Assembly: GCA_950295325.1 (NCBI GenBank)
Contig: OX485803.1
Location: forward strand, 63,441,554 to 63,505,553
Source: Polytrichum commune
Lineage: Eukaryota > Streptophyta > Polytrichopsida > Polytrichales > Polytrichaceae
Length of the DNA: 64,000 bases
Direction: 5' to 3'
The notes under the pieces are model-generated. The model made no database searches, was not told where the DNA came from, and was given only the letters and a program-made list of their open reading frames with translations. The position numbers and the translations under genes are program-made. Numbering within the stretch: the stretch's first letter is position 1; the number at the start of each line of letters is the position of its first letter. This document shows positions 8,596 through 49,950 of the stretch, piece by piece.

Positions 8596-9269
8596 TTGAG
8601 GACGAAGGGGGATATTGAAATGGAGGTATACAACTCAAACTTAAAGTTTTGGATTTGCATTACATCTTTCTTCTTTTGTACATTGCTTTGTAAATTTGTC
8701 TTTGTTAACATGGCACCAAGGGCACGTGTCCAAAGAGTGAAAGTTGAGGGTAATGAATTGTCATCACAAGAAGCTGAGGAAATTCTAGTTGCTACTATTG
8801 TTCTTGAGAAGGAGAATTGGACAACTCATGATTTTGCAAAGAATCTTGGTGTGAGAGACTATGGGCTTGATACTTTGAAAAGATTTAGGTGCAGATGTAG
8901 GAATCGATAATGATGCAATTATCGCATTTTTTGGGCCTCGAGGTGACCAGGGGTGGAAGCTGGATTCAAACTACTTGTCACATGAGGATATTTGCGATTG
9001 TAGAAGGCATAGTGAGCTTGTATATGGTCATTTGCCGTCAAATGGGTTCTACTTGGCCACATTGGCTAGTTGAGAGGAACAACCACAAAGTTAATTGGAC
9101 CAAGTTCGCCTATGATGCTACCGAACGCCAAGTGACTCTAAGGGAAAATGTGGAGAACAAGAAGATGAAAATTGAGTCTAGTGATGCAACATCATCTTCC
9201 TCCAAACAAAGTAGTTTCTCTGATAACACTATATTCGTTAAATTGAGACTTTCTCTAGTCTCAAATTAA
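8596..9269 (+). pseudogene. Broken ORF of unknown type, probably transposon-derived
   Basis: An ORF with start at about 8710 (MAPRARVQRVKVEG) runs to a stop at 8908-8910. Good-looking coding text continues in another frame (AIIAFFGPRGDQGWKLDSNY, about 8915-9070) to a TGA, and then in a third frame (ERNNHKVNWTKFAYDATERQ, about 9074-9270). At least two frame breaks are therefore needed to read it through. I do not recognise the family. It follows the dispersed repeat that also lies upstream of the 18-kb gene. Confidence 0.4.
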
Positions 9270-9923
9270 TATATGGATCAAACAACATTCCGTGTTCCGA
9301 AACTATATTGCGAACAATCTCAAATATATTATATGTTCTAATATCCCAAATCTATTATGTGTGGACATAAGCACATATGGTAGAGCACTCAACACCAACT
9401 TCATCAACAAAAACACTTTGGGTAGAGCACTCCAAACTAGTTTCATCCAATAAACATATAAAATGGTTTATATTATTAGCATGGTCAATAAAATATAGAC
9501 ATTGCAACATACAAAGTGCATGCAATAAATGCATTTTTCTTCAATGGACAATTTAGTCCCAAACTTAATAAAAAAATGAACTTCACATTTGTATTGAAAT
9601 ATAGTAAATGGATATTCATCCAACCCCAAACAATATAGCATTCGCAAGTTCTACCCAAACTTTGCCCCAAGTTTGAGGAGCACACATATGAGTAATATAT
9701 ATTCGTCGAATTACATATTACACTATAATCATGCTAACACAATCCTACCAACTTCTCATTTAACGTGGGTTGCTTCTTCTGCGATCCGAGCAAGGTTGTC
9801 TTTTGCAAAAGTTATGTACTTTTGAGGGATGGACACCGATCCACTATGATTTTTCCGTGGTTTCCATGCTATGAATATGGAATCTGTATCTATCCAAGAT
9901 GGACCATGCTCAGAATCCACCTT
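9270..9923. other. AT-rich intergenic sequence
   Basis: Nothing coding is supported. It contains the 3' flank of the transposase-like gene on the minus strand. Confidence 0.4.
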
Positions 9924-12824
9924 CTACCGAAAGTTAGGGTTTGTATCCCAGCCTGTATAATGCCGAACAACATCTTCATTCCGTGATGTCGGTCGGTAGT
10001 ACTCTACTTGTATTTGTCGAAAATGAGGGCTGGAAGTTACAAAATTTGGTTTGGACAAAGCTCTTGCCACCCACACTGGCTTTGCATATGTCTCATCTCC
10101 AGGACGCAAAATGAGCATATAACCTTCATGACAATCCACTGCAATGCGGAAAGATGGTGGCGGACGACTACTAGCAGGCCCCACGTAATGGTCGTCCACA
10201 TCAAACTCCTCTCGAACCTCTCCATTTCCCAAAAGACTAGCCTCCGAAGCTTGTACATTGACACGTGTTTGTGGCCAAAACCCATGCCTTAAAGTAAGGG
10301 GTGTATCTTGATGAAGGTTTGCCAAAGCGCCACGAACACGTGTCCAATATTGTATCCAACTTCCGTAACGAAGCCAACACGATCCACCAACATCCGCTAC
10401 CCTCAAACTCTCCCAATATTGTATGAAGCCTGATATGCCTTTACAAATGTCCTCCAAATTCTTCATGGGTATTGGTTTGCAAGGCTTAGGCTCTCCGTCA
10501 GGCAACATCGTCCTTCCTTCCCCATCAACACGCCATACAAGGAGACCCTCCGGCGGGCTCCAGTCTTGTGATGTGCACAACAACTTGTATTGCATGGCGG
10601 GGACACCATCGTCACGCACGTAGAACCGAAATTGTTGTGCCTTCGTATGCCCGATCAATCGGTGAGCTCCGCTTCGAATATACGGTTCTATAAATGCCTT
10701 GAAGTCTGGAACCTCTTCAATCATATGTGGGATGACGGGAATGTTCTCCAAATCCATGTACGACTTCATCAACAATGGGATTGTTGGAAAATCCTCCTCG
10801 CGCAACTTCATGCTCCACCGCCCAAAGGACGCATCAATATCATCATGCGTGTGGCCTACCAATAGAAAGGACACAAAAACCTCCTTGAAAATGCCTTTCG
10901 CAACCAACAACGACCAATATGCAAAAACATATCTACTTTTATTGTCCTTCGCACAATTGTCCAATTGGACACGCAGAGTTGGGGGCAAATTCTTGGCAAT
11001 CACATCTTCACTTGGTGGCTCCGGCAATGAGTGCACGCATACATCTCTTCCATCCAAGACCGCTTTATATAGAGGTGTTGATCCCGAGTTTTCAAATAGC
11101 AATCTTGATGAATAGGACGGCGGTTTCTCCAAATCACGTAAAAGCTTTGCAAATGACCCTATCGTGTGGTTTGAATCCCCCGGATACAAATCAAGAGCAT
11201 AATGAGCATACTTGACATCTCCATGCCCATGTGCAATCATTCCTGCAAAGGCAACCCAATGGTTTAATATTCAACTATAACACCAAAAAATTCACATGGT
11301 GTACATGTATGGCCCCAAGTACAATCCTAAACGCACAAATTTATGTTTAGGTAATGCAATGCAATTGTTATCAAAATCACCTGTAACCGAAACAGGAAGC
11401 TTAAAAAGGCCGTCCGTGGCTTTTATTCGATTTGCAAAACATGGTGAGGCTGTTTTGGCATGGTCCATTTTGTCATGGATGATTGTAAGGACTTCCAAAG
11501 GCCTGGAGATGGACAAAGCTCTATTTGTGTAGTAATCATTACAGTGTGCCTCTTGCATGTTCACATGCTTGAAATAGTTCATTTGATGTGCGGCATAGGA
11601 CTCTGTCCCCATCGTGTGTGCATCTCGAAGGCGTTTCAACTTCTCGCATTTGGAACAACGGGCAAATTTGTCGCCTCGTCTTTTTGTGATGTATTCGCTA
11701 AAGTGAGATTTTTTGATAGCACTCAGTTTCGACAACGAAATAGGGTCCAACCCGGCCTTCTCGCCAACTGCGTTTACGTCCAACAATATGTCTTTCCATT
11801 TCGTGCCTGTAGGAAGAACCTTCTCCACAACCTTTTCATCGGTTGCGAGTGTCCGTGTTTTGTGCGGCATTGCATCGGCAAGGGGGACAATGATGGTTGC
11901 CAGAGTGGCTGTTGCTTGTCTCGTTGCTTCTCTTGGTTTCTTTAAGCCCGTGTTCTCATGGTGACGGGCACGGCGGCCTTCATTGGCATACGCGGCTTGT
12001 CTATAAAATTCCGCTTTCGACACACCGTGAATGGTGTACCATGCCGTACAACACACGTCTATGTTCTCAAGGGTGATGACCTTGCGACCCGCTCCGTTCA
12101 CATGTATCGCCCTATGGACATCAAGTTTTTTGGTGGATCTTAGACGGAAATCTCCAAGCCACATTTCTTCACGGATGACCTTCAATTTATCTCTTGGGAA
12201 CAATTGGCAACAACGATGTACACAACAATCCTTCGTAGCAACTTCTCTAATAGACTCCTCACAGAGCAACCTTTGACGTTTACACTTATTTGCAGACGGA
12301 GTAGGACGTGTCAATGTTTCGTACTTCCGAAGGCCTTTGCGTGGCCGAATCTTTGCTTGGAGCTCCTGTTGGATTTGGACGTGTCGTCGCTCATGGTCGC
12401 GCAAGCTAACCCCCTCAATTGTCACATTCCTCAACGGCCACCTTCGCAACGAGAACCTATGAGTTGGATTGACTTCCGAATGTACAAGTGATTCTAATAT
12501 AACAACTCCAACGTCCTCGGTGCCAAGGGAGTGTTCATCAATGCAATCTTGTGGATGTGTGTTACGACAAATACCCTCCGCCACAGCAACTCCACTGTCA
12601 TTAACAAGTACCACATCCAAATTCACCCATGAAGCTCGTGAAAGCCCCGCACATTCCACAATGGGGCAAAAAGGGTCAGATGGCGAAGGACTCCCCAAAT
12701 GACCTTCATCTGCACTGTCATCAAAACTATCCTCCCCGACAATGTCTAGCTCATCCCTAGACAGAGATTGGGTGCTGCCCATGTCTTCAGAGAAGGAATC
12801 CCCTCTTCCACCAACTCCCTCCAT
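9924..12824 (-). CDS. Transposase-like protein of the plant DUF7869 type
   Basis: Two exons on the minus strand, 12824-11381 and 11242-9924, joined across a 138-bp intron (donor ACAG|GTGATT, acceptor TTTGCAG|GA). The join reads ...PVSVTG-MIAHGHG... and gives 920 residues without a stop. The N-terminal third is acidic and low in complexity. The middle holds Cys/His-containing text (CCVHRCC, CSKCEKLKRLRDAH) and a DHAKTASP motif. The C-terminal half has LDNCAKDNKSRYVFAYWSLL and FLLVGHTHDDIDASFGRWS, which I associate with DUF7869 proteins, large plant families thought to be mobile-element proteins with an RNase-H-like core. Start: ATG 12824 was preferred because a splice-acceptor-like TTTGTGTAG ends at 12830, so the longer reading to 12845 probably includes intron. 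It is divergent from the 18-kb gene, with the palindrome array between. The family name is moderately certain; enzymatic activity is inferred. Confidence 0.7.
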
Positions 12825-13024
12825 TGCGCCTACACAAATGCACATGAAACCTCAACAAACATGGACACAACGTAAGGGTCCAAAAAAATCAAATATTGGA
12901 AAATGCAAAACATCACGATAAATGGGGACACTGAGGATCAAGACATTTGCAACACAAATGCAATGTGAGCTCCCAATACTATGCGCCAGTCCACAAAATG
13001 TTCCACAAAATATTTTGGGTGGGA

Positions 13025-14160
13025 GTTTGGGTCGGCCGACCTAAACCCTGTGGCACCAGGGATTGAGGGCCATCCACACCTTGCCCGTGGGATAGGGTCG
13101 GGTTCCGGTCGACCGACTCAAACCTTGTACAATGATGGGTTGAGGGCCATTTAGAATTCCATCACGCTGTGGGGAAAATTTTGGGTCGACCGACCCAATC
13201 CTTGTCATGGTCAACTACAACCTCCGAAACTCGGGAAGGGGTTGGGTCGACCGACCCAATCTTTGACGGGGTTAATCCACCCACACTGGATAGGGGTTTG
13301 GGTCGGTCGACCCAAACTTTCACAGGCTAAATCCATCCACACTGGGAAGGGGTTTGGGTCGACCGACCCAAACTTTCACAGGGTAAACCCACCACACTCG
13401 GAAGGGGTTTGGGTCGGTCGACCCAAACTTTCACAGGGTAAGTCCACCCACACTGGGAAAGGGTTTGGGTCGGTCGACCCAAACTTTCACAGTGTAAATC
13501 CACCCACACTGGGATGAGGTTTGGGTCGCTCGACCCAAACATTACATATGATGGGATAAGGTTCCTACTCTGTCCGTCCAAACCTTTTGAGTACCTTGGG
13601 TAAGGGCCATTAACAATTCGTTCACGATGTGCGAAAAAGTTTGGGTCGACCGACCCAAACCTTCTGAAAGGTTTTACGATAAACGCCCATAGTGGGGTAG
13701 GGGTTTGGGTCGACCGACCCAAATCTCAGAAGGGTCAGACTAGACCCCCCCCCCCAACACTAGTGAAGGGGTTTGGGTCGACCGACCCAAACCTCACAAG
13801 GGTCAGACTAGACCCCCCCCCAAACACTAGTGAAGGGGTTTGGGTCGACCGACCCAAACCTCACAAGGGTCAGACTAGACCCCCCCCCCAACACTAGTGA
13901 AGGGGTTTGGGTCGATCGACCCAAACCTCACAAGGGTCAGGCTAGACCCCCCCCCCCCAACACTAGTGAAGGGGTTTGGGTCGACTGACCCAAACCTCAC
14001 AAGGGTGAGACTAGAACCCGCCCACACTAGTGGAGGGGTTTGGGTCGATCGACCCAAACCTCAGAATGGTCAGACTAGAACCCGCCCACACTAGTGGAGG
14101 GGTTTGGGTCGACCGACCCAAACCTCACAAGGGTCAGACTGAAACCCGCCAACACTAGTG
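13025..14160. repeat. Array of about 17 short palindromes (PAL-1)
   Basis: A 22-bp palindrome with conserved arms GTTTGGGTCG and CGACCCAAAC and a free central dinucleotide (AC, GT, AT or CT) recurs at 13025, 13179, 13240, 13296, 13352, 13407, 13463, 13519, 13639, 13703, about 13770, 13838, 13905, 13975, 14039 and 14103, plus degenerate copies near 13095 and 13575. Spacing is about 56 bp in the first half and 64-68 bp in the second, where spacers are themselves repeats ('cactagtgaagggg', runs of C). The arms are better conserved than the spacers. It lies between the divergent transposase-like gene and the 18-kb gene. Confidence 0.95.
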
Positions 14161-14985
14161 TCGACCGACGTATAATACAGCGTATAATGCGGCGTATAAT
14201 GCAGCGGATATTGAGAGGTGTGTGGAATTTCATCTCATTGCAAAGTTCACTGCGGACTTGCATGCTGTGAATAGGTCCTCATGAACAACAGCGTGAACGA
14301 ACCTCGAAGTACAGCTCCGACTAAGAGTTCTCTCTACGAATTCAGGAGTGGGAGAAGAGCAAAAAAGAACCAACTTTTGGGGGGTGCGCCCCTTTATACT
14401 ATCCACCTCCACTTGCCCGACTTCCTCGTTGGATGCCTTTCCCACCTTGTTATTTCAAACCTCCTGACAGAATTCCCCGTTTTCTGTTTATTGTAGAAAA
14501 TGCGCATCTTTTAATGCCCCTCTCATACCCCAGCCGTCATATGTCTTAGTCTATGATATTTAATCTTTTTTTGGTTTTGTGTGTATATGACATACGACAT
14601 TGGGAGGAAGGGTGGCGGCCACATTAATTTTTTCAAGTGTCACAACGGTATATTTTAACCAATATGTATACCCAACCACAACTCCATTCAATGCTTTCAA
14701 GTGCAAACCTATTTAGGTGGGGTTGGGGCCATTTGGAGGTTGCAATTATGAGAGAGTTTCCAAGGCTTGAGGCCATTGTCATGATGAATAAAATTATTTA
14801 TTTGTCTCCCCTAAACCCTAAACCCTAGAACATTGCGGCTCTGTTATCTCGCATGGAAGTGTGGCAATGATAAACGTATGTGGACGTTGTTAAGGGGATA
14901 CTAACTAGCAATGTCGCTTTTTGGTTCAATCTTTTAATGTTATTTCAATCCATCCTCAAGTTCACTTCAAGTTTACTAATGTGTG
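14161..14985. other. Spacer between palindrome array and tandem duplication
   Basis: Three 12-bp units CGTATAATRCRG follow the array at 14169-14205. The 14706-14806 segment matches 34808-34863 plus 35033-35079, where about 170 bp extra is present. Telomere-type CCCTAAACCCTAAACCCTA occurs at 14811-14829. No gene. Confidence 0.5.
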
Positions 14986-15830
14986 TGACCAAAACATCCA
15001 AAGTTGGACCCTAAACCCTTATAACATCCACAACATGAAATACGTATTGACAAAATACAAAACCAATTAGTATATCATGTTTAAACGTCCCAAATAACAT
15101 ATTAACATGATCAAGATTGTATTTACTATAACCTTCCTATTAGACTCTTCTTCATATTATGCAAACAATATCTGTTATATCTTTCTCCATTATCCAATAC
15201 ATGTGGAGGGAACAATGAATAAGAACATGATTGCGTGAATGGCTTCATTTGATGTTGTGCTTCTCTTATTTACTTTTGCATCACATTCCATATATTAAAT
15301 ACATCATGAACCATGGTTTATTGGCGACTATGTGATTCCCTAAAGTGAGCAAAACATCCAAAGTTGAACCCCTTACCCCTAATAACATCCACAACATTTC
15401 ATGTTATTTGAATAAACACAAGACCATTCACTATATCACGTTTAAACGTCCGTAATAACAAATAAACATAATCAAGATCGTCTTTTCTATTACCTTCCAG
15501 TAAAAACCTATTCTCACCAGTAAGTCAATGTTATATGTTAATATTGGATAGATTAATATGTTATAAACCTAACTCCTAACTCCTAAACCCTAAACCCTAA
15601 ATACAAAAATTCGTAGTTGTTCACTGCTACCTCCACATACAAACAACATGAACTTTATCTTGCGCCATTATGTAATATATGTGGAGGGAACATTCAATAA
15701 CAACATGATTGCGTCAAAGGGCTTCATTTGATGTTGTGGTTCTCCGATTTACTTTTATATCACATTCGAAGTACATATATCACGATCCATGGTTTATTGG
15801 CGACTATGTGATTCATTCAAGTGAGTATGT
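14986..15830 (+). repeat. Imperfect tandem duplication with telomere motifs
   Basis: Unit 1 (about 14990-15350) and unit 2 (about 15352-15830) share 'acatccacaacat', 'atatcatgtttaaacgtcc', 'atgtggagggaaca', 'aacatgattgcgt' and 'atggtttattggcgactatgtgattc'. Unit 2 has extra sequence at about 15510-15650 that includes CTAAACCCTAAACCCTAAA at 15583-15601. No coding capacity. Confidence 0.7.
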
Positions 15831-16364
15831 AAGGGATTTACTAAAAACTTGAGCATGTTAGCATTTCGACATAAGGATCATGCAATTCCAAACCCTGAGA
15901 AAATGCTCTTGGGGAAGGTATACATTTAGCAAACACATTCAAATATCCTAAATTTCCGAATTTCATGTTGGGGGACGGGGGTTATATTTTTTATTCATTG
16001 CATATTGTGTGAGTTCTTGGCATCATTGGTAAAGTCTAAATGTCAACGATTACATCGTTAAATGTCACGCAATTGTATTATTTTTCTAACTTGCTCAAAC
16101 AAAAGAGAAACCAATGATTTCAACTTGTTTGGGAAATTTAGGTTATGGTGTCATGTGAGTAGGGGTTAAGTCTTAGTTTTAGCATAACGTTGCGTTGTAA
16201 AAATGCATTAGTTGTATAAATGGTTTCATTTTGTAGAATACCGCATTTGATGTGCACCTTATGGGGCATTCCCTCTTGACATTAGTTAGAAGTAGTATTA
16301 GTCTAAATGCGGTTTTAGTTATCTAGGTTTCACACATATGGCTCTTTTTAGTGCCGAGCCTAGG
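15831..16364. other. Intergenic sequence, no gene seen
   Basis: AT-rich sequence between the tandem duplication and the 16.4-kb dispersed repeat. Nothing supportable. Confidence 0.35.
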
Positions 16365-16810
16365 TGGCAAATGATGTGGCATGGCTTAAAAGTGGAGGTT
16401 TTAAGCCTCAACCACCGACGCTCCCATCGGTACCTAAACATTAGGCAAGAATATAGGAATTTTAAAAGTGTCGCCTCCCACCCTTGTGACTGGTTGCTTT
16501 TTAGTCTTAGCTATGAGGGCACGAGGAGCTTCATTAACAAAAACCGATGGTAAGATAGGTGAGTAGTAAGGCATTTGGGGATGGGACAAAAACTACCCAA
16601 CATTCATTGCTTGGTAGATAAAACCATGAACATGTGTGAAAGCTACTTAACTAAAACCTACTTGAAAATCTCCGGAGCAAGTTCTTGTAGGTGCATTGGG
16701 ATAGTTGGATGCCTCCGCTATAACCGAGGGAGCTTTACCCGGTCTTTATAAAATAGTGAGGGTCTTAACTAAAGTCAAGTGGGAATGCCCCATTAGGGTA
16801 CTCCAAAGTG
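16365..16810 (+). repeat. Dispersed direct repeat, copy 2
   Basis: Same orientation as 8105-8560 and similar over its whole length. It ends just upstream of the presumed promoter and 5' leader of the 18-kb gene. Confidence 0.75.
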
Positions 16811-16849
16811 TCTTGAAAATACTAATGCCCGCTAAGGGTTTACAGTTTG

Positions 16850-17805
16850 GCTTTAGGATTTAGGGTTCCCCGTAATCCTAATTCCGTTGGTGCCCTAATC
16901 CCGTTGGCACCCTATTCGTGCGGTTGGGGGCCAATTCCCGAGGCATACAAAACCCCAGCCGTCACAACTTTTCGCTCTTTCTCTCTCTCTCCGCGCCAAG
17001 CATTCGCTCCGCGCCTCTTGTGGAAGCGCCGCCTCTCCTGAAGCGCCGCTTTCGCGAAGCGCAGTGGCGATTCAGGGTGGCGATTTTCTTCTCTTCCCTC
17101 CCTTCTTGTTGCTTTGGCGCCTACTGATTCTTCTCCTTCCCTCCCTTCTCTTGCTGTAGAAGTTAGGAAGTGTTTGCAATAGAACAGAAACCTAAGGAGA
17201 GAGTTTTAGAGTGCGTGAGAGTTAGTAGAGTGATTGTTGTAGAGTGAAGTAAGTAGAAGATTGTTGAAGGGTTTTCCAACATTCTAAGCTTGCGGGTTTT
17301 GGAGGCTGTATTGTAGTTGGAGAGTTTGTGAGATTTAGGAGTTCTATAAGATAATCAGGAGGTGTTTGAGAGATACAAAAGTCATTTGAGAGAGTCAGTC
17401 ATTGTTTTGAGAGATTCACTTGTTCTTAGGGATTCAGAGGTTGTTTGAAACACTCAATTGTTGTTTGAGAGATACAAAAGTCATTTGAGAGAGTCAGTCA
17501 TTGTTTTGAGAGATTCACTTGTTCTTAGGGATTCAGAGGTTGTTTGAAACACTCAATTGTTGTTTGAGAGATATCTAAGTCATTTGAGAGAGTCAGTTAT
17601 TGTTTTGAGAGATTCACTTGTTCTTAGAGATTCAGAGGTTGTTTGAAGTATTGAATTGTTGTTTGAGAGATTCAAAAGAGATCTAGGAGTTGTATGAGAG
17701 ATTGTGGATTTGTGTGAGAGGTTACATTCAACTGTTTCTGTGTTATTGGAAGAAGAACACCTGTTCTAAAGCAACTGTTTACAACAACTGCTACATACAA
17801 CAAAG
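16850..17805 (+). promoter_or_regulatory. Presumed promoter and 5'-UTR exon of the 18-kb gene
   Basis: A pyrimidine-rich stretch at 16977-17000 (ttctctctctctcc) is followed by GC-rich text and then a long leader without a sustained ORF. A donor-like CAAAG|GTATTT at 17801-17806 pairs with TTTTCTTACAG, which ends at 18367 immediately before ATG 18368. This suggests a noncoding first exon. Transcription start is not defined by sequence. Confidence 0.45.
17360..17680 (+). repeat. Tandem ~100-bp repeat in the 5' leader
   Basis: The unit 'tttgagagatacaaaagtca ... gattcagaggttgtttgaa' starts at about 17363, 17464 and 17563, with a partial fourth at about 17660. Each unit is itself built from variations of 'ttgagagattca', giving a purine-rich leader. 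Confidence 0.85.
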
Positions 17806-18367
17806 GTATTTTCTTTTATTATATGCAATAAGTGTTTGTCAATTGAAGGTATTGTAGCATACACAACGCATAAGCATTGTATATGCTACGTGCCAACTTT
17901 TAAAAATTACATTAAAATAGGAAAGTTTGGGGAGACGACCCAAACACGGCCACAGGTTTGGGTCGGTCGACCCAAACACAGCCTCTTGTTTGGGTCGACC
18001 GACCCAAACACAGTCTCTTGTTTGGGTCGACCGACCCAAACACAAAACAAAGCATCATGTTTGGGCCGAACGACCCAAACAACGTCTTCTAATTATAAAC
18101 TCATAAAGAAATCCATGATTTTTGCATCAATATAAAATTCACATCCACTAAAAAATAATAATCAAGGAATGTATCAAGGAAAAGTATCAAGTAATCCTGC
18201 ATGTCACAAACAATATAAAATGCAAATCCACCCAATAATCAAAACATTCTTATTATCAATACAAATGATGCTGAAATATATAAATATACAATCCACCTAA
18301 ACCTATTCATGTCGTAGATGTTTGGGTCGAACGACCGAAACTAACATTGCACATTATTTTCTTACAG
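17806..18367 (+). other. 5'-UTR intron with five PAL-1 palindromes
   Basis: Palindromes at 17956-17977, 17988-18009, 18020-18041, 18059-18080 and 18320-18341. The first four are spaced about 32-39 bp apart. Intron ends are GT at 17806 and AG at 18366-18367. The last two copies have diverged centres and arms. Confidence 0.6.
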
Positions 18368-21300
18368 ATGGCTCCAAAGAAAAGACCCGGCGAAAGGTGG
18401 TTCATGCCTGCGCCGGACATGTTGTGGCAGGAGCACGAAACCCCGCAGGATGACTCCTATTCCCCTAAGGACGGGCTTGTCCTCGCGTGGTCTATACAAG
18501 TGGTTAAGGGTTCGCAATACAAAATGATTTTTGTTGTGAAGGTTGGGACCGTGGAGAAGCACACATGGGCTACTCTTACGGGGTGGGAGGTGGCATCGGT
18601 TCAGTCTCTTGGAGACTACGTGGATGTCATCCTCGAGAACAACGCTGTCCAGAACGCGCATATGTTTATGCACCAGTTCTCCGAACCCTTTGACGCTATC
18701 TATGCAAAAGAAACATGTGTAGAACCAGACGTCATCAAACCGGAGTCCATATTCATCGATAACAGTACATCGAACACAAAGGTGTCGAGCAGATTCACGA
18801 AACTAAAGCATGCAATCAGCGTGCTCAACAAAGCCCTGCAGAGCAAAACCAAGTCTCAGCAACCCGTGAGGCGGAAAGCAACCACAGAGGAAGGAGCAGG
18901 GTCGTCAAGACCTCAATCGGTGAGGAAGCCGCGACCAGTACCGGCTGACTCGCGGAGGACCACTCCCTCCCAAACACCTGCGGATAGCGAGACGCCTACA
19001 CCTTCTGGGAGCCATCAAACAACTCCATCCAAGAGGGGGAGAGAGTCATCTGTGATGACTGACGAGCCAGTCTCACCGGAGTTGCGCATGCCGAAGCCCG
19101 GCGAAGAGGTGGATGCAGGGGAGCTGCAGAAAATCGTGAACAATTTCACGACGAAATGCTCCCACTGTTTTTTCATGGGCAGGGATTTTAAGTTCGACGT
19201 GAACATCAGCCAGTGCCATCTAGCGCCACCGGAGAAGTGTGTCCGGGCAAAGGAGGATGCCTACGTTGACTGGATAATCGCGCAGATCGTTTGCGAGCAG
19301 TTTAAAGACGACAGGCAAACGATAGTAGTGATGCCACAGGGTCTCAAGAAAATGCCTACACCTGAAATGTGGCCCACAATTCAGAAGGGCGATTTTTGGC
19401 TCATAGACGGCCAGCACAGCGTGGAGGCATCCAAGAAAATCCAACTCATGAATGAGTGGGATGATCCGAACAATCAGAAGGAAAAGCTGAAGGTTTGGAA
19501 GGCACTGGTGGTGTGGTCTGACGACGAGACCAAGCTCAGCGACATCTCCCGGTACTTCAATATGGGAAATAAGAAGAGGGCCTACCAAGCTTCCTCGATA
19601 AGGAATATCATGGCCTTGCGGGAGGTGTGGGAGTTCTATGGTAGGCCTCCCAAGGAGAGGGAGAATGCGAAGGACAAGAATCCCAAATGGGAGGTGAGTA
19701 TTGTTTAGGTCGACCGACCCAAACTCCTGATGCAACTAGTTTATTTAGTTTGGATCGATCGACCCAAACTGTTGTTGCAGATGTTGGTCATGATATGGGT
19801 TGGAAATCACATGTACATATCTAACACGCATTCAAATGTTCTGTTTTGTGGACGTGCAGGATTTCAAATACCAAATGATCAACAAATTCTCCTCCATTGA
19901 TAATTCGAGCCACAAGCAGAAGAAATACAGCGACCTCAAGGGGGAGATTTACTTGATTACAGCATCTGACTCAGTTTGGAGGAAGTGGAAAACCGTGTTT
20001 GAAAAGCACGAGACGGGGGATTTTATCGACCCCGACACTGGCATTTTCTTCAGCCAAACCTCGCGCTTCAAGCAGATGAAGCCTCTCGTGAGAGAGTTCT
20101 TTAGAACTCTTCAAGGGCTGTCAGAGACGGAGGTGGAGAAGGCGGCATCTCACATCCTGCACGTGGCACCCACGGCGAAGAGGTGTTGGGTGCACCCGAA
20201 GATTGTCTTCCAAAAGCCCAAATCCTTCGTTCCTTCATGCTACACCATGAAGGAATGGACGGATAACAGGAAAAAGAAGACGACTATCGTGCAGGAGCTG
20301 CATAAACTAGTGCCAGAGAGGAATATTGTCGTGGACGGCGAGGTCCATGAGGCTAACTGGAGAGCATTCAAAGCTGAATATAAGTTCACCAGTGCCTCCA
20401 TGGCGGCTCTAATAAGGGAAGCGGGGGACGACTTCTTGCGGGCCAAGATGGTGAAGGGTGGGAAGAACCGGGCGCTTCCGGATCACACAGCGCGTGCGTT
20501 CTCGAACTTCATCAAGGAGAAGAAGATTGTCCAGTTTGAAGGGGAAGCGTACTTCAACCTTGTCATCGCCGACCCGTTGAAAATTCAGGGCTGGCCAGGT
20601 CAAGACGCCAGAATGGCGATAAGGACGAAAGCAAGGGACCGCTTTCCTTTTGGGATGATTGATTTCAGGAATATTCCTGGAAGCTCATTTGAGGGCACGA
20701 TGAGCACCCTCTTCTATGACCCCTTCCTATCTAAGTTCGTCGATTATGCAAGCCCTAAGTTCAGGGAGGTAGATATCTGGCTTTGGATAGTCGAGGATAG
20801 GAGGGCGGAGCAGGTGTACGAGCTTGTCCGGAAATTGCAGCCGGAGTATGCAGTCTCCAAGTCTCACTACATCGCCGCACCGGCGGAGGGAGCTTATACG
20901 ACGTTGAGGGACAAGAAGACCAAGTTCGTCAACGTCTTGTGTTTGTACTTCGTGTACAAAGCGGAGTTGCTGAAGGTGCCGAACCACCCTATATCCCAGA
21001 TGGACAAACTCTTCCAAGTTCCAGAAGGGTTGGGTGTCAACAAGTGCCTCTACGACGAGGCTAAATACGCGAACTATCCTTTAGATGAGCTGCGGATGGA
21101 ATTTTACGTGAGAATGATGAGGACGCTGACGAGGAGAGGGGATTGCATCTTCAACGTCTTCGGAGGCTCTAAACCTATCTATGCTGCCATGGTAAGCGAC
21201 TTTCTATAACTCGTGCACAGTTTGGGTCGATCGACCCAAACTAGGCTCTGTGTTGGTTTGGGTCGATCGACCCAAACTAGGCTCTTTGTTGGTTTGGGTC

Positions 21301-24286
21301 GATCGACCCAAACTAGTCTCTTTGTTGGTTTGGGTCGATCGACCCAAACTAGTCTCTTTGTTGGTTTGGGTCGATCGACCCAAACTAGGCTCTTTGTTGG
21401 TTTGGGTCGATCGACCCAAACTACACATTGTACTTGGTCTTGTTTATGTCCCTCGCCTAATTCTAATGTCTATATAACTTGGATTGTGTAGATGTCGGGG
21501 CTGAGTATATACTCCTACATAGAGGATGGCGATCTGCCATTTTACAGGACGCAGAGATCGTTGGCGAAGAAGATGGACATCCTCGATTGGATCCCGGGTA
21601 GCTACGTCGACGAGGTTGTTCAGGGGGGCGAAAACCCTCTTGATAGGGTGAGGCGGATCAACCCGGAAGAAATGGCCATGAGGGCCACAACCCAAGAACC
21701 CGAACCTCTTGTCGGGTTGCATCCGGGCAATCCGTCCCGCACAGAAGGTGGCGATGTCGAGGAGGAGGAGGAAGAAGAGGAGCACGAGGAGGCGGAGAAG
21801 GAAGGCGACGTGGAGGAAGGGGCAACGGGCTTCACGCAAGAATCCGAAGCCCCTCAACGGAAGAAGGCGATGCGGGCGGCAACCCCGCAGAGTAAGCTCG
21901 TGCCCGTCCTGACGGTGGACGATGCACGGGACATGTACTCCAGGGACGCGACCGCCACGTTCAGGGAGAGGAGGAAGATGAAGGGGAAGAAGCTGTATGG
22001 CGACTACTCCGTGGAGGAGACCATTGCCATAAGCAGCGAGGACGACGATGACATTGAGCTCGCCAAACGGCTAAGATCAGATCCCCCGTCCCCGACAGCG
22101 TTCGCTGGCATGGTTAGGGTGAAGCCCGAGGTTCTGACTGTGGAGGAGGCGAACGAGAAGATGAGGAGGGACGAGGAGCAGCGAGTCCGCCTGCAGAAGG
22201 CTGCCGCGGAAGAACCCTCAATGCGGAACGAGGTAGCAGAGCTAAGGGCTCTCCTGTTGGAGCAGGAGCGACAGAGGGCGATGGCCCAACCTCCGTCCCA
22301 CACCGAATTGATATCACAAGTGATACAAGGAATGTGGGCGCAAGGTTTGGTGGTGGCTCCCTCCAGCTCCTTCCCGCACTTGCCCCCCGGCTTCCCTCCG
22401 CAGAGCATCCCTCAGCAGCCTGTGCCGCAATCGTCTTTCAGCTTCCAGCACTTGATGCGGCCCCACCAAGTTCCGTACGCGCCGGTCCAGCAAGTGGATG
22501 ACCCCAACATCTGGCGCGTCTGTGGAGCCTCCTCCCCTTTGGGCCCTCCACCACTTCGGCCCCCGATAGTCATGGCGCCCCCTCACCAATCGGACGACCC
22601 CAGGATGTTTGGGTCGACTGACCCAAACCCACCATCCACTGGAGTGTCCGAAGGGCCCTCTCCAGATGCAGGACAGTTTGGGTCGCCCGACCCAAACCCC
22701 GTTGCAGCGCAGTCCTCCTTTGACCAACATGGGTGTCAACTAGACACGGCCATGCTAGATGTTGAAGGCTTGCAAGGGCTTGGTGATACCTCTACTCCTA
22801 ACCAAATCGATGAACCCATGCATGATGCAAATGCGGAGATTGGTTTAGGACAAGGGCCTGATGCCGATCGTTTGCAGGAGAAGGTTCCTGACGTCGTCGG
22901 AGAAGGCGGTGGCGAGAGAGGCGGGGCAGCGGGGATGGTGGAGGCTTCCACATCGTCGAGACATGACCAGGGCGAGGTAATACACTGAGCCCTCCCCAGT
23001 TTGGGTCGACCGACCCAAACTTCCTGGGTCATTGTCTTGTTGGCGTGGTCGTGTCCCCCTTGCTAGGAGGAAATGCACACCCCCTGCCCCCCATGCTCTA
23101 CACTTGCTCCCCCTCCCCCCAACGTGCCCCCCCGCGATCCCCTTCGTCTCACCTGCACTCGACTATGCTCGACCTTGGCGGCGCGCAACCAATTTTGTAG
23201 ATGTAGAATTAGGATAGTGTGAATGCCCTTGTTCACCGCGGTCCCCCCCCCCCCCCCCCAATCAAATTGTACATAGAGATTTGTAAAAATAAAATTATTA
23301 TTTTGGGCGCCCATATGTTTGCATCTGTGTCCCAATGTATGTTGTTCCCCTTGTATGTTTTTGTTGCCACCAATGGTCCAATTCTTCTTGTGTTTGCACA
23401 AAATTTCCGTTCTGCTTGAGATGGACATAGCATAACATAGTCCTCGTCCGCCTTCTCTCGCTTGTCGCCGCAGGGTTCGGAGCATAGCGTCGCAGCTCCC
23501 CACCGATCCTCTCCGAGGAGTGTGGAGGACAGCGCGGTGGTCCCCCCGATTTTGCCCTCGCCACCTTCGCCTCCCAAGACCCGGTTCCTGGTGCTAGACC
23601 TCAACGGGGTCCTTGTCCAGTGCGTGCATTGTCTGAGGGTCCCCACGGTGCCTTTCTGCAAGCCCGAGGACGCCAACTACGATGGTCCCCCCGCGTACAT
23701 CAAAAGCAAGCTAGTGTACCTCCGCCCGTGGCTTCGGCGCTTCCTGCAGGTCGCCCTATCCAAATGGTGGGTGATCGTGTGGAGCTCCATGAAGTCCGAG
23801 AACACCCAGGCCGTCGTGGAGTTCATCTTCAAGGGACTCCAACCCCCGTGCTTGGTCCTAGGACAGGACTCTTGTAGAACGTTATACACCCCCGAGGGCA
23901 GGGTTGTGAAAAAACCCAACAACCCCGCCGTAAACCAATTTCTTAAGGTCTTGAAGCTAGTCGTATGGGACCAGCGTCCGACCATGGTCGGCTGTCCCTA
24001 CGACGTTCGCCCCACCCGTGACAACACGTTGATGGTGGACGACAGCGCTTCCAAAAACATTTTGAACCCGACCTCGAACTTCATAGTTTGCCCCACGTGG
24101 ACGGTCGAGAAGGTCCGAGACCGCTTTTTGTTAGACCTACTTAAGTACATTCAAACGCTCGTGGGGAGCGGACTACCCGTGCCCCGGTTCCTTAGTTGTA
24201 ATCCGATAGGCGAAAGATACATGGATCCGAAGGACTATATGTACAGAGAGTTGTACGCTCACGCGAAATATAATAAACTCATTTGA
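18368..24286 (+). CDS. Large ParB/DGQHR-like and FCP1-like HAD phosphatase protein
   Basis: Exons 18368-19693, 19860-21191, 21492-22976 and 23474-24286 join in phase 0 with canonical GT-AG ends to give about 1,650 residues. Residues 1-442: MAPKKRPGERW start, Ser/Pro/Thr-rich linker at ~175-250, then FWLIDGQHSVEASKK (DGQH 347-350), which resembles the DGQHR/ParB N-terminal fold. Exon 2 (443-886) continues as DFKYQMINKFSS and has no family I know. Exon 3 holds an acidic run, possible coiled coil (~1110-1160) and Pro-rich tail. Exon 4 is an FCP1/NIF-type HAD domain: motif I DLNGVL (Asp1423, Asn1425 where the second Asp is usual; Asn also occurs in other plant FCP1-like proteins), VIVWSS and DDS (1570-1572). 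It probably acts as a phosphoprotein phosphatase if active. ATG 18368 directly follows an acceptor. Every intron carries the PAL-1 palindrome. Domain assignments: HAD good, ParB/DGQHR weak. Confidence 0.7.
19694..19859 (+). other. Intron 1 with two PAL-1 palindromes
   Basis: Donor GAG|GTGAGT, acceptor GTGCAG. Palindromes at 19703-19724 and 19748-19769, the first only nine bases after the donor, so the pre-mRNA could fold right beside the splice site. Confidence 0.8.
21192..21491 (+). repeat. Intron 2: six palindromes at exactly 36-bp spacing
   Basis: Copies start at 21220, 21256, 21292, 21328, 21364 and 21400. All have the perfectly palindromic centre AT (TTTGGGTCGATCGACCCAAA). Linkers are 14 bp variants of 'taggctctttgttg'. 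Donor ATG|GTAAGC and acceptor TTGTGTAG border the intron. The high identity suggests recent local amplification. Confidence 0.9.
22607..22697 (+). repeat. Two PAL-1 palindromes inside exon 3
   Basis: Copies at 22607-22628 and 22676-22697, 69 bp apart, lie in the reading frame and encode FGSTDPNP and FGSPDPNP in the Pro-rich tail. The frame is kept, so either the sequence is old and tolerated or it arrived with frame-neutral flanks. Confidence 0.85.
22977..23473 (+). other. Intron 3 with one PAL-1 palindrome and a poly-C run
   Basis: Palindrome at 22999-23020. A run of 17 C lies at about 23245-23262. Donor GAG|GTAATA and acceptor CGCCGCAG bound it. Confidence 0.75.
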
Positions 24287-24405
24287 GATACTACATGGTG
24301 TGCCATTGTGTGTGATATATTATGCCTCAATTGTATATCGATTTTCACATGCTCCCCCCTCCCCCCCTCCCCTTGGGTTTTGTTTTGTTTCCTTTTTTGC
24401 GCCAG

Positions 24406-25227
24406 CGTTTGGAGCCCTCGATTGAGATCGTCAGCGAATCAAACTTGGGGAGCTTCTTCTACGAGACCGTCTACGATGCCGCGTCCACCATCGACTACTC
24501 CAAGGAGCCTATCGACGCCGGCGTCGTCGATAGCCCCCCACTCAAGCAAATCTTCCGGCCATCTCCGTCCCCGTCGCCGCTCAAGGGCATAAATCGCAAA
24601 TGCGTCCGGACGTCCCCCTCTCGGCCCGGCGGCAGTATTACACCTCAACGGCGGCTGCGGATGGACGCTCGGCCCACGAAGAGTGGCACCCTTCCTATCC
24701 CTTTGCGGGACGCCTTGCCCCTCCTCGCCAACTCCGACGGGAACGCCCCCGGTGACAAGGTGAACCCCCCCCCCCCCCCCAAAACATGGTTAACCGCGCA
24801 TTACAATCATCCCGCACTTAAAAATTGAACGTGTGACACGTTTGGGTCTTCCTCCCTAAACTAACACATGTGTTCTTGCATTGACGCGTTGCAGGTTGCT
24901 CCCACCCGTAAACCTATGCGGGCTAGTGCGTCCGTCGAGTTGGAGCGTTTCTACTCCATGACCAGAAATGCAAGACAGTCCACTTCATCGTATTCGAATT
25001 CTTCGTCGTATAATTCGGGCGGCCGACGGAATCCAAAATGTGTTTTTGATGGCGGTCACCCCAAGAATGGCTATAGTCGCGGGGCGGAGATTTTCAGGAA
25101 TGTTGAAGCAATGCGAGCAAAAGAAGCCGCAGCAAAAGAAAAAGAGGCAAAAGAAAAAGAGGCAAAAGAAAAAAAAGCAAAAGAAAATGAAGCAAAAGAA
25201 AAAGAGGTAGTCTCCGAGGCTAGATAG
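24406..25227 (+). CDS. Two further phase-0 exons, end of the 18-kb gene or separate unit
   Basis: Exon 24406-24759 follows a long pyrimidine tract and CAG; it reads RLEPSIEIVSESNLGSFFYE and is then Pro/Ser/Arg-rich. Its donor AAG|GTGAAC pairs with GTTGCAG at 24894 and exon 24895-25227, which ends in a Lys/Glu repeat (KEKEAKEKEAK type) and TAG at 25225-25227. Both exons are phase 0 like the four upstream, and the intron (24760-24894) holds a degraded palindrome at 24840-24861, so they look like part of the same gene. However exon 4 ends with TGA at 24284-24286 and I see no canonical phase-0 donor before it. An alternative isoform, a lost donor or a separate small gene are all possible. No family recognised. 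Confidence 0.5.
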
Positions 25228-25369
25228 GCCATAGTAGGCGTAGGGTTGTGGGCCATAGGCAAGAACATTTTGGGTCGCACTATCCAATGGATGTGTGGTG
25301 TTAGCATGCTATGCATTTTACATGCCACACTTTGTATGTTTTTTTTGCAATAATATAAGTGTCACATGA

Positions 25370-25630
25370 TTTCCCCTTCCATATGGTCTAAGGTTTGGAT
25401 TGCCCTACCTAAACCATCACAAATATGAGTTTGGAATATTTTGTATGTTATATTATATTGGTTCACATATTTCCCCTTCAATATGATCTATGGTTTGGAT
25501 TGCCCTACCTAAACCATATTCATACAAGTTTTTGTGCGATAATATGAATGTTTTAAGATTTCCCCTTCAACTTGGCCTAAGGTTTGGATTGCCCACCCTA
25601 AACAATCCCAAATATGAGTTATTAATGGGG
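25370..25630 (+). repeat. Tandem ~95-bp repeats with diverged PAL-1-like sites
   Basis: Three units each contain 'atttccccttcaa...' followed by a 22-bp site GTTTGGATTGCCCTACCTAAAC or close variant at 25393, 25493 and 25582. The outer bases match PAL-1 (GTTTGG...AAAC), with the inner arms changed. It lies directly 3' of the last exon, in the presumed 3' flank. Confidence 0.65.
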
Positions 25631-26680
25631 TTCTTGTTCTAAACACCCGCTTCAAAGTGTTCGCATCTTACAACTTTCTCCAATATGTGTTCCATTTATC
25701 CTTGTTCTTATTTTTGTGAATGTCTCAAAATGCCCAAAAAGTCTCAATTTAACGAATATAGTGTTTGATTGGATAAACAATAAGGTATTGATTCTAAACA
25801 TGCGAACAAGTTGCTGCTACAAGTCTCTGAATAAGTTTAGGTCATGTTGGAACAATTGTAAGCTAAGTTTCTTTGTGTGGATTGGAGGTTGCTAGATGTG
25901 ATCACTCGAGAGGGGAAGGTTTTAGGCCTATGAGTGATAGAATCAAGTTCCCAGCATTGAAGGACTTGAACACAGTAATGTTGTTGCAGTAGTACATGCC
26001 ACTAGTTACAGTTTGTTCATGAACTCAGATCTAAAGCTTCGATCAGTTCTCACCCACATATCCATTAACCCTTAAAGGACATATGCTTTCCCGATACCAC
26101 ACCCAAAATATCTTTTAAAATTCATTTTAAGCATGATTAACCAATTAATTTACATAGGCTCTATTCTAAAGAAGTATAGATCTTGCTAAGGTGCTCGATT
26201 TGGCATCCTAAAAACCCCATTTGGTGCAATGGAGTAGAAGTTTTGAACAAGATTCTCCCAAAATAATACCAAGCCCGTGGGGCTTGCATTGTCGTTTAAG
26301 GGTTAACAGAGCCGAAATGTGACCATTTTGGTAATGTCCGGCAACCTAAGATGTTTCAGCTTGGATGGCACCATGTGACAACAAGGTCGACTTTTGGTTC
26401 TTATGGTGAAAGTCTGTGGTTTTAGGGTGGTCTGCCGGTGCACTCTGCACATGACTTTTCGTGGTGTTTGTGAGTGTGGATTACCAAAGCTGGCTGGATG
26501 TGAGTTGAGAGGAAATTTAAATTATACTGCTAAAAGTGATGGATTATTTTTCCTCATGTGATTTGTCAACTCACTTGAAGGTGCATTTTGGGGACCTTTA
26601 ACTATGGTACGCTTGAGGACTACGACTAACTTTGGGTTGCTCTTGCCTAGGACATGGGCATTGTGCAAGAAAATGATGCT
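25631..26680. other. Intergenic sequence, no gene seen
   Basis: AT-rich, no sustained coding text. There is no TIR partner for the 9-kb side that I could recognise. Confidence 0.35.
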
Positions 26681-28764: not shown

Positions 28765-29036
28765 GGGCCGCTTTACACCTAGAGGCCGGGCCAATTTCCC
28801 TTGAGGCCGATTGCACAAAATTTGAGCCTTTTTTGGGTTGGAGGCCGGCCTCTACTACACATTATAATAAGATTATAACGGGGGCCAATTTTCCCATATG
28901 TAAAGGCCCTTGGGCCAAGAAGCCAAGCCGATTCAATAAATTTAGGAAAATTTTAGCCCCTCTTTCTTTCTTTTCATTGTCATTTGTACAAGATGGATGA
29001 ACGTAGACGGAAGATTTTAGTTTTCTTGTGTTCTTC

Positions 29037-30383
29037 ATGGCCGTGCGACATGTTATGGCGGTTGTTGCAATTTTGCAAAAAATTGCTTTGCATGATCATT
29101 ATGCTGCCATGACAATTGTTTTTGCTACGATGGTTGTGGAGAGTAGTACGTCTAGGAGGACACGGAGTATTTGGATGTATGACCAGAGTATTATTTTTGC
29201 GGATAGATTGTTATTTGGATGTTACTCGGTTAAGTTATTCAAACAATATACAAGGTTACTTCCCAAAACTTTTGATTATTTGTGCGGTGTCTTATCTCCA
29301 TCATTAAGTCGTAAGGATACAAATTTCAGAGCATCCATTCCTCTTAAAAACCGGATTGCTTTTTCTTTTAATAGACTTAGTAGTGGTAATTCATTACGCG
29401 GTTGTGCTGAAACTTATGAAATTCATGAAAGTACTGCATCTATCATTGTAAGGGAGTTTTGTGCAGCAATTGAAAAACATTTAAAACCACTAGTAATTGA
29501 GAAACAATCTAAAGCTACATTGAATAGAATTGCAGCCAAGTTTGAGGAGCTTAGGGGATTACCTTATGTAATTGGAGCGGTTGATGGTAGTCATATACCC
29601 ATCATTGTTCCTCCTATAGATCCTACTTCATATTATTGTAGAAAAGGTTTCTATTCAGCTCTACTTCAAGGTGTAGTGAATAGCAAATGTAGGTTTTGGA
29701 ATTATGATTTTGGATGGGCTGGGCGTTGCCATGATTGGACTTTGTTCCAAAATTCAGATATTGGGAAAAAAATGATGAAAGGTGAGTTATTACCTTACAA
29801 ACTTATGGGTGATGTTGCTTATCCAATGAGACCATGGTTCTACTCTCCTTTCAAAGGTGAAAAAGATGGATTACCTAGAGCAAAGGCGCATTGGAATTTC
29901 ATCCAATCATCAACAAGAATGGCAGTAGAAAAAACTTTTGGCATATTGAAAGGGAGGTAGAAGATATTATTGAAAAGAATTGACATGCCTCTCCGACATG
30001 TACCTAATTTGGTTACTACTTGCATTTGTCTTCACAACTTGTGCATATTACACCGAAACAAATTTGATGATGAATGGGAAAAAATAGAAGAAAGAATCAT
30101 GCATAGAGAGAGTATAAATCAACTTGGACAGCTAGAAAATGTAGATATATTTATGGCAGCTACACAAGCTGCAAAAGAGATGAGGAGGTACCTGAAAATG
30201 GACGAGGTTGAAGCAGGAACTATGCAAATTGAAGACCTTGAAGAAACTATGGTAAATACATTTGAAGATTTAGGAGAAGATGAAGATGAAGATAAGAGTG
30301 CGGAGGTAGTCGAAACAAAAAAAACAAAAAAACAAGGATTAAAAACTTGCTGGTGCAAGCAACACAAGCACATAATTTACTAG
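29037..30383 (+). pseudogene. PIF/Harbinger transposase with one premature stop
   Basis: A 449-codon frame encodes a DDE_Tnp_4 transposase. Key text: GAVDGSHIPI (first Asp), YYCRKGFYSALLQGVV, GWAGRCHDWTLF, LMGDVAYPM (second Asp), AVEKTFGILKGR (Glu) and HVPNLVTTCICLHNLC. The frame is interrupted once by TAG at 29958-29960, in GR-*-KILLKR; related transposases usually have Trp (or a similar residue) here, so TGG to TAG is the likely change. The C-terminal part (29961-30383) remains open and ends in an acidic tail with Lys-rich end. The start is uncertain: ATG 29037 is the first in frame, while ATG 28993 begins MDERRRKIL in another frame and may be the original start before a frameshift. The protein would bind the element's TIRs together with the Myb-like partner. 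Confidence 0.9.
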
Positions 30384-39510: not shown

Positions 39511-39511
39511 G

Positions 39512-40045
39512 AATTTTCAGATCTGAAACTAAACCCTGTCCTACCTGTAGATCTTCCGTGACCTCCTCTATGACAAAATCAAATCCTTCTTCGAAAGAGA
39601 CACAATTCCCTCCTAGATCCACAATGCCCACCTCTATGGCGATCGACTAGGACAACGTCGATCAAAGTTACAACTCTTCCAAATCCTAAACTAGCAATGC
39701 AACAGCCTTTCCTCAGCTTCCTCACTCGCTCCGAAGCTGTCCAGTGGCGTGAGCAAGGAAGAATGACAGAAGAATGACGGAAGAATTTTCAGATCTGAAA
39801 TTAAACCCTATCCGTCCTGTAGATCTTCCGTGGCCTCCTCTATTACAAAATCAAACCCTTCTTCAAAATAAACACATTTCCCTCCCAGATCCACAATGTC
39901 CACCTCCATGGCGGGCAACTACAACAACATCGATAAAAGTTACAACTCTTCCAAATCCTAAACTAGCAATGCAACAACCTTTCCCCAATTTCCTCACTCG
40001 CTCCGGAGCTGTCTAGTGGCGTGAACAAGGAAGAATGACGGAGCT
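39512..40045 (+). repeat. Tandem duplication of ~268 bp
   Basis: Unit 1 (39512-39777) and unit 2 (39782-40043) share 'gaattttcagatctgaaa', 'gtagatcttccgtg', 'agttacaactcttccaaatc' and 'ctcactcgctccg'. Short frames occur but are not conserved between units. Confidence 0.85.
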
Positions 40046-45006: not shown

Positions 45007-45457
45007 TTATTGATTATGGGATGGTGTTTCCCCATAAAGGGTCCAAAATAGGTGTTGAAAGGTTACAGACAAATGAAATACATGATCTCCATTTTGGTAA
45101 TCATTGAAAAATTCGCCTTCAAGCTTGAGAATGCTAGTCTTTAGAGCATAACGAACAACGGGCATTGCAACCATACGACAAAGAGGCACACAACAACGAG
45201 ATACACGTAATTCAATAAAAATAGCACTTGTATTCACTTTTCGTTTGGTCATTATATTAGAAATCTTAGTTTGATAGGAAAATATCATCATCTTCAGAAG
45301 CTTCGAAAACCTCATCACAAAAATTATGAAGAAACAACATCATCGTGAAATTTTCGTTTGCCAATCCTCTTCCTACATCAAGCAGTCTTTCCAATCTTAT
45401 GTTGACTAGGAACATGAAGACTTGTATCAGAAAGTCGCAGTTCACGATCATTAACAT
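45007..45457 (-). pseudogene. Possible transposase remnant
   Basis: Overlapping minus frames contain text with a protein-like flavour (ENFTMMLFLHNFCDEVFEAS; LEGEFFNDYQNGDHVFHLSV), but frame changes and stops break it. I cannot assign a family. Confidence 0.2.
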
Positions 45458-49900: not shown

Positions 49901-49950
49901 GTATAGATGTCTGTGATGTCAAGTACTTACCATCTTCTTGTAATGACGAT
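46935..49950. repeat. AT-rich intergenic with pyrimidine-rich tandem repeats
   Basis: 47330-47790 holds about a dozen degenerate units of 'ccaccttcacactcaagatc-caaccctcttt', mostly on one strand C/T-rich. Beyond 47900 the sequence is AT-rich, with frames made of hydrophobic low-complexity residues that I do not take as genes. Confidence 0.6.

Follow-up and report, generated by a model that had tools for sequence, protein, structure and literature searches.

Architecture of the palindrome locus

The window analysed here is a stretch of 64,000 nucleotides of Polytrichum commune contig OX485803.1, in which a 22-bp palindrome recurs at one locus. This whole locus is an intact DNA transposon of 16,541 bp, which we call W (Table 1). 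Its borders were found by aligning the window with three other loci bearing the motif (copies A, B and C on contig C1), and we regard the locus as a DNA transposon because its borders carry perfect 28-bp inverted repeats and all four insertions are flanked by target duplications. Both ends of W are common to A, B and C, with three mismatches in the right end of B, and each of the four copies examined has its own 4-bp target duplication (TGAT in W, AAGT in A, CCTT in B and TTAT in C), so that terminal inverted repeats and target duplication, as in cut-and-paste transposons, were found in all four. A 4-bp duplication is also characteristic of the Sola superfamily. At up to one mismatch the two W ends were found 393 and 407 times in the 408-Mb genome (control, 0), and the 95 scored relatives of partner exon 3, out of 1,232 candidates, are 91-100% identical to the window. 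The initial annotation, which referred to the 18-kb and 11-kb genes, had missed that all of it is one high-copy transposon.

Table 1. Features of transposon W, in window coordinates
Feature	Position	Strand	Remarks
Entire DNA transposon (W type), 16,541 bp	9225-25765		Perfect 28-bp terminal inverted repeats; 4-bp target duplication TGAT/TGAT
Left terminal inverted repeat	9225-9252	+	AACACTATATTCGTTAAATTGAGACTTT
DUF7869 gene, presumed transposase	9924-12824	-	Open reading frames 9924-11270 and 11292-12824; Pfam PF25273, E 8.6e-42
17 palindromes 5' of the DUF7869 gene	13025-14123		Spacing 55-77 bp, one of 120 bp
4 palindromes 5' of the partner gene's first coding exon	17956-18080		Spacing 32-39 bp
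Single palindrome directly 5' of the partner's first coding exon	18320-18341		Retained in copies A, B and C
Partner gene, divergent to the DUF7869 gene	18368-24286	+	Open frames and splice sites assigned by visual inspection
Partner gene, predicted coding exons	18368-19693 (2), 19860-21191 (3), 21492-22976 (4), 23474-24286 (5)	+	Non-coding exon 1 presumed upstream
2 palindromes, predicted intron 2	19703-19769		4 in copy A, 3 each in B and C
6 palindromes, predicted intron 3	21220-21421		36-bp period
2 palindromes within predicted exon 4	22607-22697		Starts 22607 and 22676; kept at the DNA level
Palindrome, predicted intron 4	22999-23020		
NLI-interacting-factor-like (NIF) phosphatase domain, last partner exon	23474-24283	+	Pfam PF03031, E 1e-13
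5 degenerate palindromes	24840-25603		4-5 mismatches
Right terminal inverted repeat	25738-25765	-	

The DUF7869 protein is presumed to be the transposase. The partner protein shows the signature IDGQHSVEA near position 19406 and the sequence FWLIDGQHSVEASKK, ParB-like by resemblance only. Its gene is conserved in copies A, B and C, some of which have stops or frameshifts (copy A is frameshifted in exon 4), and in the related family X. A Pfam scan of the W partner exons gave no family except NIF in the last exon; this domain is also present in the partner of family X (L029:7737-8516; PF03031, E 5.1e-14). A phosphatase of this kind is expected to have the motif DxDxT/V. The corresponding sequence is DLNGVL in W and X alike, so that the second catalytic Asp is replaced, and the NIF domain of both may be inactive.

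Among DUF7869 elements the partner diverges fast. The X partner is 32, 37, 25 and 42% identical to that of W over exons 2 to 5, and those of Y and L033, with the signatures VNGQHTLAA and VDGQHVEHA, are 18 and 22% identical to it in the aligned ParB-like part. Identity of the DUF7869 protein to that of W (37% for L033; Table 2 for X and Y) lay above that of the partner wherever both were seen. All four DUF7869 lineages read far enough to reach the partner (W, X, Y and L033) have this fast-diverging [D/N]GQH protein divergent to the DUF7869 gene; L031 and L032 were read less far.

Palindromes in the window and in the genome

The W palindrome, GTTTGGGTCG-NN-CGACCCAAAC, has 33 matches with up to three mismatches in the window, 22 of them exact, between 13025 and 23020, close to the 34 or so copies counted by the initial annotation; none was expected by chance, the largest count in 100 dinucleotide shuffles of the window being 0. 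With up to five mismatches allowed the number rises to 39, the six additional sites, with four to five mismatches, starting at 9416, 24840, 25268, 25393, 25493 and 25582. The range of 13.0 to 25.6 kb given previously therefore holds for robust sites from 13.0 to 23.0 kb, and from 24.8 to 25.6 kb there are degenerate versions only (n = 5). The sites lie in arrays, in predicted introns and in an exon, as had been claimed, including the two within predicted exon 4. The two central bases are indeed free: a tally of 213 sites with up to five mismatches from seven loci gave AC 46, GT 36, AT 27, AA 21, AG 19, TT 18, CT 15, CC 12 and four other dinucleotides. Lone half-sites are scarce, with 0 to 5 per locus in the same number of loci.

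These positions bear on two readings in which the palindromes take part in recombination or transposition. A recombination site, one of the options of the initial annotation, was rejected: the palindrome is not part of the repeats at the transposon ends, and neither the number nor the position of the sites is constant. In a second reading the palindromes would be transposase sites, or accessory sites of TNPA type, required for excision as in En/Spm. Being encoded in the element, multi-copy and family-specific, they would resemble the subterminal repeats of CACTA elements as described in the accessible part of PMC2613891. The robust sites, however, begin about 3.8 kb from the left and 2.7 kb from the right end of W and lie in introns and promoters; with sites at 13.0-23.0 kb in an element spanning 9.2-25.8 kb, the subterminal location of TNPA sites is not found. 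This point rests on the W-type copies, whose ends are mapped, and we consider a role in excision unlikely. In a short element F, 4.8 kb long with both ends and a CACT duplication, the palindrome was matched only three times, with four mismatches each. F was not accepted as proof that the palindromes are dispensable, since its deletion junction occurs once in the genome and may postdate insertion.

The palindrome had been noticed at this one locus, which is true for the window; the genome-wide search that had been proposed returned 9,231 exact sites, and 0 for the reversed control. The first 100 of these 9,231 all lie in or beside two types of element: the W-type copies A, B and C, or the clusters D, E and L034 of a second type, termed E, of which L034 carries the E-type transposase open reading frame at 96% identity. 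An ordinary dispersed repeat, spread evenly and unrelated to these genes, was thus not what was seen among these first 100 sites. The exact W palindrome was absent from the viral contig and genome contig collections searched, and three protein queries found no relatives in viral contigs, so a prokaryotic or viral origin of the word was discarded. Three phage matches to the E-type exon had E values of 4-10 and were taken as chance.

The E type is tentatively MULE-like. One copy has a 10-bp duplication, AGTTGGCATG, read by eye, and there is a weak match to a SWIM zinc finger (E 0.076). Its own plus-strand gene has the sequence FFIWDGNHRFFAW and encodes a DGNH protein with a degenerate tail resembling a DNA methylase. 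The MULE-like loci E, E2, G and H all carry the DGNH protein together with palindromes of the same design as that of W, and no DUF7869 match was found in these loci.

Conservation of the palindrome arms

Copy A, the most diverged copy compared, was aligned with W at six matched sites (one upstream, two in intron 2, two in exon 4 and one in intron 4). The arms are identical at 116 of 120 positions, the centre at 4 of 12 and the other positions at 766 of 1271 (arms against the rest, Fisher p = 1.8e-19), in agreement with the earlier remark that spacers are less conserved than arms. The intron alignment is partly anchored by the palindromes themselves, a worry to which exon 4 is less open; there, in a nucleotide alignment, third codon positions are identical at 15 of 16 places in the arms and at 85 of 144 elsewhere (p = 0.006). 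The 4-fold sites alone point in the same direction without reaching significance (7/8 against 46/84, p = 0.13). Neutral amplification of tandem repeats without function would account for several of the arrays, which are plain tandem repeats. That sites outside the large arrays, in introns and exon, keep their arms to this degree while the centre is not kept, and that other families have different words of the same design, makes this very improbable.

The arms do not behave as paired strands. Among 71 imperfect sites, double changes that were complementary numbered 2, where shuffles gave 3.3 (p = 0.87), and paired positions numbered 594 of 710, where 591.4 were expected (p = 0.26). In the wider set with up to five mismatches, arm pairs had changed on both sides in 22 cases, 5 of them complementary, and on one side only in 150. 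A hairpin module of RNA or DNA, whether a source of small RNA or structural, would fit the perfect inverted repeats within predicted introns and an exon; the loss of pairing in imperfect sites and the retention of the sites as a fixed word leave it little chance, and the amplifying hairpin offered by the initial annotation was rejected with the covariation test. Because the arms are conserved, compensating changes are absent and half-sites are rare, the full dyad appears to be kept as a word and not as a pairing. The symmetry itself can be counted with no choice of words: perfect palindromes in 22 transposon loci have an even centre in 242 cases and an odd centre in 3, in loci that are not independent and with a few AT-rich hits included, compared with four of each kind in the remainder of the window.

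Palindrome words of the element families

Further loci were added to the comparison, eleven of them E-like and G-like, together with two DUF7869 families. Eight palindromes were scored in 24 loci (Table 2), the W and CCTGTGCG words being allowed two mismatches at most and the others one. One word only was present in 21 loci, two in E and E2 and none in L026; all other cells were zero. Since the words were chosen from the same 24 loci, the information lies in the zeros. The comparison omits F, L034 and locus D, in which insertions are nested and three palindrome types occur.

Table 2. Palindrome word of each locus or family
Locus	Relationship	Word	Remarks
W, A, B, C	W type	GTTTGGGTCG	
X	DUF7869 gene 65% identical to W	TTACGGACG	847 exact sites genome-wide (GTTTACGGACG arms), control 0
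Y	DUF7869 35-52% identical to W over three stretches	CCACGGGTG	644 exact sites genome-wide (CCCACGGGTG arms), control 0
L031	Sub-lineage of Y, DUF7869 protein 87% identical	CCACGGGCG	Twice only
L032, L033	Another family; mutual identity 95%	GGTGAGGCA	28 and 15 times
L016-L020	E-like	CCTGTGCG	4-bp centre, often TTAA
E (L009+L010), E2 (L014+L015)	E type	CCTGTGCG-NNNN-CGCACAGG as in relatives, and the W word of an unrelated transposon	Two words
G, H, L021	G and H: relative of the E-type gene, 40% identity	GG[G/T]TTCGG	GG[G/T]TTCGG-NN-CCGAA[A/C]CC 18 and 14 times in G and H; W motif absent from both
L022-L025		GTGTCTCGG	
L026		None	

Three DUF7869 loci (L031, L032 and L033) were picked blind as a test of the prediction, and each carries a palindrome word. 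Counting by consensus gave 2 sites in L020, 10 in L022 and 0 in L026, three loci in which the initial palindrome scan had shown none. Between neighbouring families both arms change alike (CCACGGGTG in Y against CCACGGGCG in L031, and GTTTCGG in G against GTCTCGG in L023). Symmetric change between families combined with uncorrelated change within a family would be the expected trace of a homodimer shifting its specificity.

A CpG is present in each arm of seven of the eight family words, GGTGAGGCA being the exception, and might connect recognition with CG methylation. G (L012) has one exact copy of a second palindrome, TTGAAGCC-TC-GGCTTCAA, and H (L013) has three, in or near 85-bp tandem repeats.

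The partner protein as candidate binder

Since DUF7869 and MULE-like elements alike have a [D/N]G[Q/N]H protein, the partner is the strongest candidate for the protein that reads the palindromes, and we predict with fair confidence that it binds them. Its features leave room for two other functions. In one, a protein derived from ParB would load at the palindromes and spread or bridge DNA for cohesion, segregation or insulation, and not against silencing. The [D/N]G[QN]H signature, the many palindromic sites per element and the methylase-like tail of the E type (PF01555, N6_N4_Mtase, E 6e-4, covering profile positions 30-218 of 221 and scoring 20.3 bits, below the cut-off of 26.7) speak for it; no Pfam or PDB match of note supports the fold, DUF6551 having scored E 0.045 in one of five members, and partition is not evidently needed by plant nuclear DNA. 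We rate it as low as a role in excision.

In the other, the methylase-like domain of the partner would modify the palindromes or DNA nearby, as proposed for algal transposons, with Ectocarpus and green and red algae cited as precedent in the available text of PMC12477816. The Pfam match of the E-type tail again favours it. The catalytic motif [DNS]PP[YFWH] was not found in the coding frames of seven partner-gene stretches, two of them partial (Y and L033); two hits were either intronic or in a different frame, and a motif interrupted by an intron would escape. The W partner has no Pfam methylase match, and the tail was not seen in the G-like loci, where reading covered either the surroundings of the first exon or the stretch as far as the transposase gene. 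Because the catalytic motif was not found in coding frames, DNA binding is more likely than modification, and self-marking appears less probable still than ParB-like bridging.

Proposed function

A site for a dimeric protein, the remaining option of the initial annotation, is favoured here, since the arms are constrained, the centre is free, half-sites are rare and the palindrome differs between families as the partner does. We assign a probability of roughly 50% to the reading that the palindrome is a family-specific binding site of a transposon-encoded protein, most likely a homodimer of the [D/N]GQH partner, working as an anti-silencing system like that of VANC in Arabidopsis. That the binder acts as a dimer is the most secure part and is probable; that its binding counters silencing is drawn by analogy and stands at slightly under even odds. 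Each 8-10-bp arm would be read by one subunit of the partner, the 2-bp centre remaining unread, and with sites spread over both promoters and the introns the protein would coat the non-coding DNA of its own family. This coating would counter host silencing, or otherwise switch on the two genes of the element, as VANC does in Arabidopsis. We favour anti-silencing over excision sites, partition-like bridging, self-marking and hairpins because the location in promoters, introns and other non-coding DNA, the growth of arrays, the family-specific words and the fast partner match VANC systems.

Several observations weigh against this anti-silencing reading. Close copies say little about constraint, as the arms are identical to W at 116/120 positions in B and 117/120 in C, compared with 1116/1271 and 1210/1271 elsewhere. 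No palindrome of this kind is present in L026, and just two are present in each of L020, L021 and L031. Two palindromes per copy (W, A, B and C) lie within an exon, unlike VANC motifs. The same palindrome is found in W and in E, whose partner proteins have little resemblance to each other, which means that no single protein lineage fixes the word. A profile alignment of DGQH and DGNH proteins puts the motifs together at E = 0.14, which is not significant; the partner proteins have no Pfam or PDB match of note for a ParB fold, and AlphaFold2 single-sequence models of pieces from the window are unusable for the fold, with predicted local distance difference test scores (pLDDT) of 41 and 34. Finally, the observed/expected CpG ratio of W, at 0.79, is only modestly above that of its flanks (0.51-0.65), and it is 0.82-0.83 in the W genes and only 0.60-0.63 in arrays and spacer; as a sign of escape from methylation this ratio was dismissed as too weak.

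A wider and more tentative proposal, which we hold to be possible but less probable than anti-silencing in W itself, is an address system. A protein of prokaryote origin with ParB-like and methylase-like parts, its methylase dead, would bind palindromes private to each family and so keep that family active. The system would occur in at least two unrelated superfamilies, words and proteins would diverge together, and one MULE-like family would have copied the word of another to profit from it.

Other features of the window

A decayed E-like (MULE-like) element occupies 45061-45279 and 48620-53120. What is left of it includes part of a DGNH gene, 49% identical over 76 amino acids, and traces of the minus-strand transposase open reading frames; the W palindrome is absent from this stretch, and the window as a whole lacks six other family palindromes. 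Left of W, a SufB/SufD-like gene (2157-3743; PF01458, E 2.1e-38) is apparently a host gene and in keeping with a plant; the genome matches listed for the element searches were all on contigs C1-C7. A PIF/Harbinger-like DDE transposase (29007-30383; PF13359, E 5.2e-19), with one in-frame stop after 29957, lies a short way beyond W. Other tandem arrays were found at 39511-40039, 45725-46233 and 47382-47791, with units of 272, 116 and 31 bp.

Comparison with known systems

Bacterial ParB has a DGxH-type signature and binds a palindromic parS site. The elements described here resemble ParB-parS in these two respects, the signature being that of the presumed binder; they differ in that no sequence homology was detected, that each element has many sites and that the transposon resides in a eukaryotic genome. 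Like TNPA of En/Spm and other CACTA elements, as far as the available sections of PMC2613891 describe it, they combine an element-encoded DNA-binding protein, here a predicted one, with diverging repeated sites; the CACTA sites are subterminal and serve excision, whereas those of W are internal and palindromic.

The closest functional parallel in our reading would be VANC of the Arabidopsis VANDAL transposons, for which self-defence against silencing by a private DNA-binding protein has been described. According to the accessible parts of PMC5735166 and PMC10398659, arrays of short motifs lie in introns, upstream regions and other non-coding DNA and differ between related families, as the palindromes do. 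The partner is likewise encoded beside the transposase (in W, X, Y and L033, with DUF7869 as the putative transposase), and the transposase is more conserved than the partner. AT9TSD1, a transposon unrelated to that of VANC6, also has the VANC6 motif and shows a response to VANC6 (PMC5735166), and the W word in E and E2 is a possible case of one transposon borrowing the tag of another. VANC motifs differ in being 8-9 bp long and of one orientation (YAGTATTAY; AGTTGTCC or AGTTGTAC), whereas the present ones are palindromes of 18-22 bp, mostly with a 2-bp centre. VANC carries DUF1985, for which Pfam scans of the partner exons gave no match at E up to 1, and it belongs to another transposon superfamily.

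Giant algal transposons such as Sola1-1_Ec32 have ParB-like and N4C/N6A methyltransferase accessory proteins, for which binding to the element itself has been proposed (PMC12477816, as far as accessible). The present elements share with Sola1-1_Ec32 the large size and the accessory gene on the strand opposite the presumed transposase, and their partner proteins have putative ParB-like and, in the E type, methylase-like parts. They differ in that the search for the catalytic methylase motif was negative in the coding frames examined, and in that the W and X partners end in a phosphatase-like domain. The available text on the algal transposons mentions no binding sites, whereas the present elements have family-specific palindromes. 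In our literature search, which left subscription journals mostly outside, nothing was found on these palindromes or their turnover, and DUF7869 was not mentioned. The family-specific palindromes and their turnover are the new part, the protein class having already been proposed in algal transposons. This genome thus supplies what is apparently the other half of the algal system: palindromes that vary by family and lend themselves to synthesis and to assays with the partner proteins, a natural series of protein and site pairs from which to learn how specificity shifts, and candidate tools for sequence-specific control of the epigenome.

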